This document shows, one piece after another, positions 47,230 to 52,619 of a stretch of DNA of 64,000 nt; positions within the stretch are counted from its first letter, which is position 1; each line of letters begins with the position of its first letter. Location: positions 1,957,501 through 2,021,500 of the forward strand of contig NZ_FPCI01000001.1 in NCBI RefSeq assembly GCF_900116385.1, written 5' to 3'. Source of the stretch: Pseudoxanthomonas sp. YR558. Its GTDB lineage: Bacteria > Pseudomonadota > Gammaproteobacteria > Xanthomonadales > Xanthomonadaceae. The notes under the pieces are model-generated. The model searched no databases. It had not been told where the DNA came from and worked only from the letters and a program-made list of their open reading frames with translations. Both the position numbers and the translations under genes were made by a program.

Positions 47230-47319
47230 GATGACCTCACGGGGTGCGCGGCACGGCCGGGGGACCGTGGAAGGCGCTGGAAGGGGATGCGCCATCGTCC
47301 GCCCTGCACCACCTCGCCG

Positions 47320-47380
47320 GCAGGGGAGCAATGTCCCGACGTGTGGCCCCGCGCACGCACCGCAGGGGAGCAATGTCCCG
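47320..47380. repeat. Two identical 19-bp repeats in the mddA/LuxR-hydrolase control region
   Basis: GCAGGGGAGCAATGTCCCG occurs at 47320-47338 and again at 47362-47380, exactly 42 bp apart, about four helical turns. Each contains the inverted repeat GGGA-N6-TCCC. A TACACT -10-like box (47383-47388) sits just after the second copy, so copy 2 covers the -35 position of the plus-strand gene. They look like paired binding sites. Confidence 0.6.
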
Positions 47381-47417
47381 GCTACACTGCGGACCGGCTC
47401 CCCATCGGGATGGCTGC

Positions 47418-48470
47418 ATGCAGCAGGCGATCCGCTACCTGACCACCGGCGATGGCGCGCGCCTGGCCTGGGCGTCGCTGGGCAACGGGCCGGTACTGGT
47501 CAAGGCGGCCAACTGGCTGAGCCACCTGGAATACGACCTGGAAAGCCCGATCTGGCGCCACTGGTCGCGGTTCTTCGGCGAGCACTACCGCCTGCTTCGC
47601 TATGACGAACGCGGCTGCGGGATGAGCGGCGGCGATGCGCGCGGCCTCACGCTCGACCACTGGCTCGGCGACCTGGAGGCGGTGGTGGAGGCCGCGGACC
47701 TGCGCGAACCGTTCGCGTTGATGGGCATCTCGCAGGGCGCGGCGGCCTGCGTGGCCTATGCGGTGAAGCATCCGCAACGCGTGTCCAAGCTGCTGCTGTA
47801 CGGCGCGTACGCGCGCGGCCCTTACGAACGCGACGACGATGAAGCGGCACGGCTGTATCGCGCCATCATCGACATCGCGCGCGTCGGCTGGACGGACCAG
47901 AACCCGGTGTTCCGCCAGGTCTTCACGTCGCGCTTCATTCCCGAGGCCACCGAGGCGCAGGTGCGCTGGTTCAACGAACTGGCGCGCATCACCACCACGG
48001 CCGAGGCGGCCGGCGCGCTGCTGGAAGCGCGTGCGCACCTCAACGTCACCGGTTTGCTCAGCCAAGTCACCGCACCGACCCTGGTGTTGCATGCGCGACA
48101 GGATTGCGTGGTGCCGCTGGAGGAAGGCCGGTTGCTCGCCGCCGGCATTCCCGGTGCACGCTTCGTCGAGCTGGACTCGCGCAACCACGTACTGCTGGAA
48201 CACGAACCGGCATGGGAGCGCTTCCGCCAGGAGGCGCTCGCATTCCTGGGCGGCGCGCCACGTGGCGAGGAGCACTTGAATGTCCTGACCGCGCGCGAAC
48301 GCGAGATCGTCGCGGCGCTGGTCTCCGGCAAGACCAACGCGCAGATCGCCGCGTCGCTCTTCATCAGCGACAAGACCGTGCGCAACACACTCACCCGCAT
48401 CTACGAAAAGCTGGGCGTGCAGTCGCGGACGCAGGCGATGGCGTTGTTGCGGGGGGCGGAGACGGATTGA
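47418..48470 (+). CDS. Alpha/beta-hydrolase fused to a LuxR-type DNA-binding domain
   Basis: A 350-residue fusion. Residues about 20-270 form an alpha/beta-hydrolase with DERGCGMSGG, the nucleophile motif MGISQGAAAC (Ser about 108), Asp in HARQDCVVP and His in RNHVLLEHEP, so the triad seems complete. Residues about 285-345 are a LuxR helix-turn-helix (LTAREREIVAALVSGKTNAQ then ISDKTVRNTLTRIYEKLGV). It likely senses or hydrolyses a small molecule and regulates transcription. ATG 47418 follows GGGATGG. Divergent from mddA with paired repeats between. The ligand is unknown. Confidence 0.88.
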   Translation: MQQAIRYLTTGDGARLAWASLGNGPVLVKAANWLSHLEYDLESPIWRHWSRFFGEHYRLLRYDERGCGMSGGDARGLTLDHWLGDLEAVVEAADLREPFALMGISQGAAACVAYAVKHPQRVSKLLLYGAYARGPYERDDDEAARLYRAIIDIARVGWTDQNPVFRQVFTSRFIPEATEAQVRWFNELARITTTAEAAGALLEARAHLNVTGLLSQVTAPTLVLHARQDCVVPLEEGRLLAAGIPGARFVELDSRNHVLLEHEPAWERFRQEALAFLGGAPRGEEHLNVLTAREREIVAALVSGKTNAQIAASLFISDKTVRNTLTRIYEKLGVQSRTQAMALLRGAETD

Positions 48471-49917: not shown

Positions 49918-50748
49918 CTAGGTCTTCTTCTTGCCCGCGTAAATAGCCAAATCTTCTGCAGAAATGCTAGATGCGGGCACCAGTTCATAGTGCTCTTCCG
50001 AGACGACTCTAATGTCACCATCTTGCTCAGTCAGTTCGAACATTGCGATCTTGTTGCTTGTCATGAATTGCGCCGAGACCGGGCGGCAACGCAATGCAGG
50101 AAACTTCTCCCTACAGCAGGCGATATCCTGTTCGGTCTGCTGCCTTCCATGCTTGTCTTTACCGCCTTTTGCTTGAACCGGAACGACGTACTGGCTGCCA
50201 CTGCGATCAATTCCGACGTAAAGCTCGTCGATCTCGATCTGCCCGATGCCTTTAACCGTAGTTCGAAGATGGTTCTGCAAGGACGAGGCCGTTATGCCAA
50301 GAAAGATATCGATGAGCCTGTTGTAGCGTACCTTTGCGAGCAAAGCTTGCTCGTCGCCAAGCGCATGAGCCCCGATGATCTCGGGTGTAGCGTCCGGAAT
50401 CTTGACAACCAGCTGATGCTCTCGCGGCGAGATATTCAAAGGCCTAACAAGTCTGAATTCGTACTTCGACACTCCTGCACCCGAGATTATCCATTCATAA
50501 CCTTCTGGCGCGGTACTCGTGATGGACGTCGGGAGAGTGGCCCTATATTTGAACGAATAGATGGTGTCCCCCTGATTCTTGGGGAGCTCTATTCCTTTCT
50601 CTTCAGCGATCTCGGCGAACTCTTTGCGCTCGAAACCAAATCGCTGCTTCCCCCTCTTATGGTGCCGCCGGAAGACTTCCGAGATGATTTCGGAGTACCG
50701 ATTCGGCGCCTTCTCCTTCTTCACCTTAGGTTCTTTCGCTTTGACCAC
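49918..50748 (-). CDS. Putative type II restriction endonuclease
   Basis: A 276-residue protein that I do not recognise by name. A PD-(D/E)xK-like core is visible: IEIDELYVGID (about 171-181) followed by VVPVQAKGG (QAK, about 192-194). The basic N-terminus is Lys-rich. The GTG start at 50748 has AGGAG overlapping the vsr stop. The vsr-endonuclease order beside a C5 methyltransferase strongly suggests the restriction enzyme of the system. Specificity is unknown; V.XorII/M.XorII of Xanthomonas is a possible but unproven relative. Composition is AT-richer than flanking genes. Confidence 0.7.
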   Translation of the reverse strand: MVKAKEPKVKKEKAPNRYSEIISEVFRRHHKRGKQRFGFERKEFAEIAEEKGIELPKNQGDTIYSFKYRATLPTSITSTAPEGYEWIISGAGVSKYEFRLVRPLNISPREHQLVVKIPDATPEIIGAHALGDEQALLAKVRYNRLIDIFLGITASSLQNHLRTTVKGIGQIEIDELYVGIDRSGSQYVVPVQAKGGKDKHGRQQTEQDIACCREKFPALRCRPVSAQFMTSNKIAMFELTEQDGDIRVVSEEHYELVPASSISAEDLAIYAGKKKT

Positions 50749-50757
50749 TGTCCGCTC

Positions 50758-51162
50758 CTAATCGCCCAAAGCCCTTTGCAACTTTTTGGCCAGCTTGTCC
50801 GGCCGTTTGAGTTCGCATTCCCAAACTATCACAACCTTCCAACCAAGCGCCCTTATCCCTCTACGCTTTCGTGAATCGCGGCTGCGGTTTGTTTCAATCT
50901 TCTCGACCCAATACTTGGTTCGCGACTTGGGCATCTTGGTTCGCTTGCATACGTGGCCATGCCAGAAGCAACCATGCACGAAAACGACCGTGCCGCGGCC
51001 AGGGAGGACGATATCAGGCGTTCCAGGCAGGTCCCTCCGATGCAGGCGGAACCGGTACCCCATCCTGTGCAACATTGATCTGACTTCAATTTCCGGCTTT
51101 GTGTTAGCGCCCCTGATTCGGGACATAAGCCAGCTTCTGCGCTCCGGACTCAGCCTATCCAC
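50758..51162 (-). CDS. vsr: Very-short-patch mismatch endonuclease
   Basis: Nicks beside T:G mismatches that arise from deamination of 5-methylcytosine. The 134-residue protein starts MDRLSPERRSWLMSRIRGAN and carries the catalytic Asp region GTPDIVLPG, FVHGCFWHGHVC (catalytic His and zinc Cys/His) and YWVEKIETNRSRD. GTG 51162 is preferred over TTG 51186 because the family N-terminus begins there and GGGAGG lies upstream. It is the first gene of the vsr-endonuclease unit and is divergent from the methyltransferase. Confidence 0.93.
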   Translation of the reverse strand: MDRLSPERRSWLMSRIRGANTKPEIEVRSMLHRMGYRFRLHRRDLPGTPDIVLPGRGTVVFVHGCFWHGHVCKRTKMPKSRTKYWVEKIETNRSRDSRKRRGIRALGWKVVIVWECELKRPDKLAKKLQRALGD

Positions 51163-51245
51163 GCCCCTGCAGCCTCCCAGTCGCAAGATTTGAGAGAAGT
51201 CGCGACAATGATACCTGCCGCCCTAGGATGGGGCAGGAGGCTCAA

Positions 51246-52619
51246 ATGGACGACCTTTTCCGATCGACTTCTCGACGCTCTCGCCCTATACTCGCGCACA
51301 TGACAAGACCCATCGGAATAGACCTCTTCGCCGGAGCTGGCGGACTCAGCCTAGGCTTCGAACAAGCAGGTTTTGATGTCGTTGCAGCCGTGGAGATTGA
51401 CCCCGTTCACGCGGCGGTCCACGAATTCAACTTCCCTCACTGCGCGGTGATCCCTCGCTCGGTCACCGACCTGACCGGCGACATGATCCGAAAGGCGGCC
51501 GGCATTGGCAGAAAGAAGGTCGATGTCGTGTTCGGCGGCGCCCCATGCCAGGGCTTCTCGTTGATTGGACATCGAGCAATCGATGACCCTCGAAACTCGC
51601 TGGTCAAGGATTTCGTGCGCATCGTTCGCGAATTAGAGTCCGAGTATTTCGTCTTCGAAAACGTGAAGGGCTTGACGGTTGGCAGGCACCGTAAGTTCCT
51701 CGACGAGCTGATCCAAGAATTTTCCGCTGCTGGTTATGACGTCGTCGAAAGCTGGAAGGTTCTCAACGCTTGCGAGTACGGGGTGCCGCAGGACAGGCAG
51801 CGGCTGTTCCTTCTTGGCGCAAAGAAAGGACGCAAGCTGCCCTCCTACCCTGCGCCGATTACGTCGAAGCCTGGCCGCGCCGAAGCTATCCAACCCAGCG
51901 CGCCGACGTGCGCGGACGCCTTGAAGGACTTGCCCGATGCCGAGCGCTTCAAACGGCTCAACGTCAGTGACGAAGTCGAAGTGAAGAAGTGGGGGGCGAC
52001 TAGCGCTTACGGCAAGCTCATGCGCTGCGAAGTTCCCGAAGGGTGGGCGTACGGCTATCAGCGCAAGTGGAATCCCAACTTGCTGACTTCGAGCATGCGC
52101 TCGGAGCATACCGACATCTCCCGAGCCCGATTCGCTGCTACAGAGCCAGGTGAAGTCGAGCCTGTATCCAGGTTCTTCCGACTCCCGTCCGATGGCGTTT
52201 CCAACACGTTGCGAGCTGGAACTGACGCGGCACGTGGGGCGTTCACCAGTCCGCGGCCAATTCACTACAAGTGGAATCGCTGCGTCACAGTGCGCGAAAT
52301 GGCGCGCCTGCATGGGTTTCCGGATTGGTTCCGATTCAATGAAACCAAGTGGCACGGCGCTCGTCAGATCGGTAACTCGGTGCCCCCCCCACTTGCCCGC
52401 GCCGTCGCCTCTGAAGTGTTACGTGCGCTAGGCGCAAAACCGAAGAAGCCTACTCAGCGAATTGATTTGGGAGCCGACACGCTTCTTCGAATGGGAATGA
52501 GCCAGGCGGCCTCCTATTGGGGTATCGCGAACCCCATTGCTCAGCGAGACAGAAAAAGCGGCATCAAGAAGCGCAAGCAAAGCGACATCGATCCAACTCA
52601 GACCTCGATGCGCTTGTGA
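51246..52619 (+). CDS. DNA (cytosine-5) methyltransferase
   Basis: Methylates C5 of cytosine in its recognition site, protecting DNA from the linked endonuclease. The 457-residue protein has motif I DLFAGAGGLSLGFEQAG, motif IV GGAPCQGFS (catalytic Cys about 101), motif VI ENVKGL, motif VIII QDRQRLFLLG and motif X QIGNSVPPPLA. The variable region lies at about 220-345. ATG 51246 is chosen because a perfect AGGAGG is 5 bp upstream; ATG 51228 and 51300 are in frame. No controller protein gene is seen. A terminator follows. Confidence 0.95.
   Translation: MDDLFRSTSRRSRPILAHMTRPIGIDLFAGAGGLSLGFEQAGFDVVAAVEIDPVHAAVHEFNFPHCAVIPRSVTDLTGDMIRKAAGIGRKKVDVVFGGAPCQGFSLIGHRAIDDPRNSLVKDFVRIVRELESEYFVFENVKGLTVGRHRKFLDELIQEFSAAGYDVVESWKVLNACEYGVPQDRQRLFLLGAKKGRKLPSYPAPITSKPGRAEAIQPSAPTCADALKDLPDAERFKRLNVSDEVEVKKWGATSAYGKLMRCEVPEGWAYGYQRKWNPNLLTSSMRSEHTDISRARFAATEPGEVEPVSRFFRLPSDGVSNTLRAGTDAARGAFTSPRPIHYKWNRCVTVREMARLHGFPDWFRFNETKWHGARQIGNSVPPPLARAVASEVLRALGAKPKKPTQRIDLGADTLLRMGMSQAASYWGIANPIAQRDRKSGIKKRKQSDIDPTQTSMRL

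Follow-up and report, generated by a model that had tools for sequence, protein, structure and literature searches.

What regulates the conversion of methanethiol to dimethyl sulfide in bacteria, and why would a LuxR-type DNA-binding domain be joined to an alpha/beta hydrolase beside a gene for this reaction? Both questions are raised by a divergent gene pair in the 64,000-nucleotide stretch of Pseudoxanthomonas sp. DNA analysed here (the window). According to excerpts of two papers, MddA converts methanethiol to dimethyl sulfide and mddA is most abundant in soil (PMC6524544, PMC12904073). The excerpt of the second reports induction of actinomycete mddM genes by H2S, methanethiol and oxidative stress and does not contain the word 'regulator' (PMC12904073). 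A paper on Vibrio quorum sensing states that MddA is missing from vibrios, and a paper on mycobacterial cyclases contains the words hydrolase domain and GerE (PMC2447327). Within the titles and abstract openings of the open-access papers that matched our searches, neither a regulator of mddA nor a hydrolase-LuxR regulator was described.

The window mddA scored 336.9 bits with the NCBIfam MddA equivalog (cut-off 270), while its resemblance to the general Pfam families NnrU and ICMT stayed below their cut-offs; from its sequence, the product is predicted to make dimethyl sulfide. The fusion gene, with its best start at the ATG at 47418, is transcribed divergently from mddA. The nearest relatives of the window are from Pseudoxanthomonas, and the closest named fusion protein, from P. 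mexicana, is 97% identical. Between the two genes, the 19-bp sequence GCAGGGGAGCAATGTCCCG occurs in two exact copies starting 42 bp apart (at 47320 and 47362), just as the preliminary description had it. No third match with up to 3 mismatches occurred in the window, and none of 100 shuffles yielded two matches. In the whole genome, the 15-bp core occurs exactly only at the two repeat positions, with one 2-mismatch site elsewhere. Elsewhere in the window (49918-52619), the list of open reading frames reads as a restriction-modification-like cluster comprising a Vsr-like endonuclease, a DNA cytosine methyltransferase and a further gene. The features of the locus are compiled in the table.

Table. 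Features of the mddA/fusion locus, in window coordinates unless given as residues (aa).
Feature	Position	Strand	Basis or remark
mddA-like methanethiol S-methyltransferase gene, 252 aa	46471-47229	-	NCBIfam NF045656
Alpha/beta-hydrolase-LuxR fusion gene, 350 aa	47418-48470	+	Pfam, AlphaFold2 model, alignments
Operator copy 1, mddA-proximal (putative)	47320-47338	+	core 14-mer 47324-47337, - strand reading GGGACATTGCTCCC; centre about -43 from the predicted mddA start site near 47287
Operator copy 2, mddA-distal (putative)	47362-47380	+	core 47366-47379; within spacer of predicted fusion promoter
Predicted mddA -10, GACGAT	47294-47299	-	+38 to +43 from first G of operator copy 1
Predicted weak mddA -35 position, TGCCGG	47317-47322	-	abuts operator copy 1; T+15 in 38/38 anchored loci
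Predicted fusion -10, TACACT	47383-47388	+	3 bp after operator copy 2
Fusion domain layout	hydrolase aa ~5-278; LuxR/GerE HTH aa 289-342	+	Pfam, model, alignments
Ser105 codon, GISQG nucleophile elbow	47730-47732	+	aligned with esterase residues
Triad partner codons, Asp229 and His257	48102-48104; 48186-48188	+	aligned with esterase residues

Pfam assigned Abhydrolase_1 to residues 44-261 of the fusion protein and GerE to residues 289-342 (PF00196, 64.8 bits vs. a cut-off of 23.5). The N-terminal Pfam matches were to hydrolase families only, and the autoinducer-binding domain of acyl-homoserine-lactone LuxR receptors is absent. The protein is an alpha/beta hydrolase both by fold, as indicated by an AlphaFold2 model (mean pLDDT 91.1, pTM 0.79) and Foldseek, and by its triad, Ser105, Asp229 and His257 aligning in sequence with the corresponding residues of solved esterases. 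In the Foldseek search with the hydrolase domain, esterases, perhydrolases and an enol-lactonase matched best; the plant receptors DAD2, D14 and KAI2 followed at ranks 27-50. Sequence searches returned 7792 fusion relatives at E <= 1e-60 among 7995 candidates scored. In the alignment of the fusion with relatives, the full triad is kept in all 20 mddA-linked rows and in 9 of the 12 other rows; the distant relatives L061, L064 and L066 are without one or more of its residues. The complete Ser-Asp-His triad beside a LuxR HTH, proposed earlier from the window alone, was hence borne out. Cys67 (47616-47618) lies beside a DERG motif, occurs in 30 of 32 relatives, and is replaced by Ser in the two Halomonas proteins, which have a different hydrolase as target. 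It is possibly a thiol-reactive residue; as a marker of mddA linkage it was rejected, since rows with Cys67 include some without mddA.

Similar hydrolase domains are also joined to other modules: to a BTAD/SARP-like module in L020 (Pfam), and, by reading of the sequence, to an AraC-like module in L074 and a winged helix in L070. At locus L115 (3008-4995), a fusion of a winged helix (Trans_reg_C, Pfam) with an alpha/beta hydrolase is encoded divergently from mddA and without GGGACA sites, suggesting that a hydrolase regulator became paired with mddA a second time, separately. More broadly, the hydrolase-domain relatives L020-L025, L065, L067, L069, L071 and L074 (42-51% identity) are fused to BTAD/SARP-like or AraC-like modules or belong to very long ATPase-type proteins, the modules being assigned by Pfam for L020 and by eye for the others. 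The joining of hydrolase domains to various DNA-binding modules supports a sensor function, and the hydrolase domain is probably a small-molecule receptor. It could instead be an oligomerisation scaffold or a housekeeping esterase, with regulation by protein level and not by ligand, and the loss of triad residues in the three distant relatives would fit this. We consider it unlikely, however, as the triad is intact in every mddA-linked row and as the related domains are combined with BTAD, Trans_reg_C and AraC-like modules in the manner of sensors.

The association of the fusion with mddA was followed through related genomes. Among 61 relatives, the own genome included, 16 loci encoded a fusion homologue (at least 53% identity, reaching the HTH), and mddA adjoined the fusion in 16/16. 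Across 198 family genomes, 30 encode mddA (E <= 1e-60) and 20 the fusion (E <= 1e-90), and every genome with the fusion also has mddA. A search of named genomes recovered the gene pair in Steroidobacter, Luteimonas, Lysobacter, Wenzhouxiangella, Arenimonas and several Acidobacteriota; class-wide sampling added just two further relatives in 369 genomes. In G001 (L017, G001:C71), mddA and both operator sites are present and the fusion gene, split into two overlapping frames, is broken or misassembled; in G003, a contig end cuts both genes. The loci occur in two gene orders, divergent or in tandem with the fusion preceding mddA. In a tree of 41 proteins, the tandem loci form one group of 14 rows (support 87/83) with the Halomonas loci and L060 inside, indicating that the gene order may have changed only once.

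The repeats turned out to be the window's version of a more widespread element. In 40 of 43 distinct fusion+mddA loci from Pseudomonadota and Acidobacteriota, paired sites of the type GGGACA-N2-TGTCCC (pair score at least 17 of 24) lie 40-43 bp apart upstream of mddA, so that gene pair and repeats, which were to be sought in related genomes, are both conserved. Doubly fetched loci had been removed from this set, the listed duplicates being identical over 260 bp; it still holds close relatives such as L005/L017, L009/L010 and L045/L119. Two of the exceptions depart from this spacing by about one helical turn, the sites of L130 being 32 bp and those of L043 53 bp apart; in L051, no pair adjoins mddA, and a pair (score 20, spacing 43) is located beside the fusion, about 500 bp from mddA. 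The consensus is the imperfect palindrome CGGGACA-N2-TGTCCCG, whose left half-site is degenerate in the window (GGGAGC vs. GGGACA). In divergent loci the sites occupy the shared intergenic region. In tandem loci they lie in the gap before mddA, and many of these loci have a perfect palindrome (CGGGACATTTGTCCCG, CGGGACAATTGTCCCG) as their mddA-distal site. No pair was detected within 200 bp before the fusion in 21/21 tandem loci (best scores 12-15 of 24), indicating that the operator pair goes with mddA. Five loci fetched later all carried the pair; L198 and L199 are near-identical and L200 is near an earlier locus, so these five are not independent. Comparison across genomes thus speaks strongly for the link, and the recurrence of the fusion and the paired sites beside mddA in distant bacteria suggests one device.

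Alignment on the proximal site revealed a fixed promoter register in a set of 38 chosen loci (L017, L037, L043, L050 and L051 were left out; the pair analysis covered all 43). Read towards mddA, the GGGACA arm of this site is the better kept one (GGG in 38/38, A in 35, C in 38, A in 36), and it is followed by T+15 in 38, A+39 in 34 and T+43 in 36 loci. The -10 score at this offset was 4.6 (next best 2.85), above all 2000 shuffles and all 2000 rotations. A -10-like NANNNT at a fixed distance puts the centre of the proximal site at about -43, the position of a class II activator; by this sequence register, 28 of 32 non-redundant loci, those with both A+39 and T+43, have the palindrome so placed. 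Among the later-fetched loci the register was kept in 4/5, L201 being one base off. A scan with the strict sigma-70 consensus found no promoter and the -10 assignments rest on the register; as weak evidence, this would be expected of a promoter that requires an activator.

On the fusion side, 11 of the 12 divergent loci examined have TACACT or TAGACT 3 bp beyond the mddA-distal site; L015 is the exception. The downstream repeat had been placed at the -35 position of the fusion gene. If TACACT is the -10, this copy overlaps the -35 end and also fills the spacer, which suggests repression and not activation of the fusion gene. Negative autoregulation is accordingly a plausible reading of the divergent loci. 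The earlier idea that the fusion switches its own transcription would thus apply to divergent loci and does not extend to tandem loci, where the pair is missing before the fusion. That one protein switches both genes is supported by the linkage across genera and phyla and by a geometry fitting both promoters, and is weakened by some relatives that are without the pair.

Sites, spacing, -10 register, linkage and triad were all established by sequence comparison, and from them we infer binding, direction of regulation and ligand sensing. We consider it likely that the fusion acts as a dedicated one-component regulator, activating mddA, repressing itself in divergent loci and using its hydrolase domain as receptor. 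A dimer of the LuxR-type HTH would bind the imperfect palindrome at two sites four helical turns apart upstream of mddA. From the proximal site it would activate the weak mddA promoter, and in divergent loci the farther site would cover the fusion core promoter, so that the protein would limit its own synthesis. The hydrolase domain would receive a small molecule that MddA, or a substitute enzyme elsewhere, removes or makes. Alternatively, the fusion could repress both promoters until a ligand relieves repression, a TetR-like logic with a LuxR HTH. Occupation of the fusion promoter spacer by operator copy 2 would agree with this, as would sites four turns apart, which could allow cooperative binding or looping. 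A repressor, however, should reach into the core promoter of the gene that it mainly controls, whereas the proximal site stops before the mddA -35, its centre keeping a constant offset of about -43 (34-36 of 38 loci), and both -10 and -35 of mddA are poor, as in activated promoters. Repression of both promoters is therefore improbable.

Several controls bear on the specificity of the pair. Upstream of 12 mddA genes without the fusion, scores at spacings of 40-43 bp were 11-15, and no GGGACA occurred in 260 bp; two of these controls, L115 and L143, encode a hydrolase-like protein (about 30% identity), and a third, L114, is from the own genome. Of 400 random 190-bp chunks, drawn from operator-containing loci and searched at spacings of 30-55, 11 scored at least 17. 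Single palindromes with at most one mismatch were found in 34 of 37 genomes (126 matches vs. 100 for the reversed control), which leaves the pair as the informative element. In the own genome, GGGACA-N34-37-GGGACA has a single exact match, namely the mddA/fusion locus; in genomes without the fusion, exact pairs also arise by chance, at about the control frequency. As a candidate for a second regulon member, the near-perfect single site G000:C1:327109 lies at the start of an apparent MerR-like coding sequence and was treated as chance; the site recurs in G014 and, judging from the letters only, in G001 and G008 too.

L114 (G000:C2:1196500-1207000) contains the second mddA of the own genome, close to a small SCO4226-like gene and to a gene for an 862-aa AAA/LuxR regulator (LAL, MalT-like); in G036 (L116), mddA is near a similar 861-aa frame. 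No paired GGGACA-type sites were found upstream of the second mddA. With this copy free of operator sites and neighboured by another LuxR-type (LAL) gene, the cell can evidently manage an mddA without the fusion regulator.

We also scanned 15 fusion relatives without mddA. In five of them (L040, L042, L047, L197, L062), a pair scoring at least 19 at 40-43 bp lies beside another gene. L040 and L047, both from Halomonas, score 19 and 22 with a pair in register upstream of a gene for an alpha/beta hydrolase (the L040 target was scanned with Pfam and that of L047 reads alike), and in L042 it is in register before a divergent gene for an AurF-like diiron protein (score 20). Two further pairs do not keep the register: that of L197, ahead of a hydrolase-like frame, scores 20 at a spacing of 43, and that of L062 scores 19 at a spacing of 41. 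In L196, the two sites are 54 bp apart and precede a frame of about 50 aa; L056, L057, L058 and L063 each have one site, upstream of an AurF-like gene. The AurF-like genes of these four loci and of L042 are homologous to one another (52-86% identity); the three scanned matched Pfam AurF below its cut-off. In the scanned flanks of the remaining five (L060, L061, L064, L066, L073) no pair was detected (scores 13-14; 14-15 upstream in L060 and L061). Relatives with the fusion but with neither repeats nor mddA, named at the outset as evidence against a common switch, thus exist, and apart from L060 and L073 they are the more distant ones. The same regulator and operator facing other genes argues against a signal tied exclusively to methanethiol. 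Methanethiol as the ligand is unsupported given this swapping of targets, and as inducer it is no more than a guess.

The pairs found next to the fusion with other target genes also speak against the sites belonging to another regulator, with the fusion a bifunctional enzyme present by chance; as the sites moreover co-occur with the fusion and are absent from the 12 mddA upstreams without it, we regard this reading as very unlikely. Hardly any weight remains for a translation or RNA element, suggested by the purine run followed by ATG within each copy (GGGGAGCAATG, resembling a Shine-Dalgarno sequence with ATG), and we rejected it, because the element of relatives is a palindrome of TGTCCC arms whose two copies are spaced 40-43 bp in 40/43 loci, is constant in its orientation relative to mddA and, in tandem loci, is found in the gap ahead of that gene.

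Returning to the one-component regulator, it is conceivable, though we put it forward tentatively, that the fusion and its sites make up a transferable cassette of regulator and operator. The hydrolase-fold receptor, joined to its LuxR HTH, would sense a small, perhaps volatile molecule and switch on whichever disposal enzyme stands behind a fixed double operator. Sensing might occur by binding or by slow hydrolysis, as in plant strigolactone receptors, and the targets would be mddA in most genomes examined and the AurF-like diiron protein or another hydrolase in others. The parts are ordinary; their combination is new and well conserved. The fusion represents a candidate regulator of mddA with an exact operator, a promoter register and conservation across phyla, which together make it directly testable.

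Among known systems, LuxR/GerE one-component activators with a lux-box-like site near -42.5 of the activated gene are close. The fusion resembles them in its C-terminal GerE HTH and in a palindromic site that, by the sequence register, would abut the -35 at about -43. It differs in its sensor, an alpha/beta hydrolase in place of an autoinducer, receiver or AAA domain, in its two sites four turns apart and in its divergent or tandem arrangement with mddA. The best structural and sequence matches of the hydrolase domain are members of the esterase/perhydrolase/enol-lactonase family (1va4, 3om8, 2xua, 5h3h; about 20-25% identity), which, unlike the fusion, are free-standing enzymes without an HTH. 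The hydrolase part of mycobacterial LipJ, a lipase/adenylate cyclase, matches residues 5-258 of the fusion, far below the model cut-off; its output is a cyclase, whereas that of the fusion is predicted to be DNA binding. RsbQ and the strigolactone/karrikin receptors DAD2/D14/KAI2 share the fold and the triad residues, RsbQ as a sequence match and the plant receptors as fold matches. RsbQ and these plant receptors signal through partner proteins, whereas in the fusion the hydrolase domain is joined directly to the DNA-binding domain, which would make it a bacterial case of an enzyme-fold receptor wired straight to DNA.
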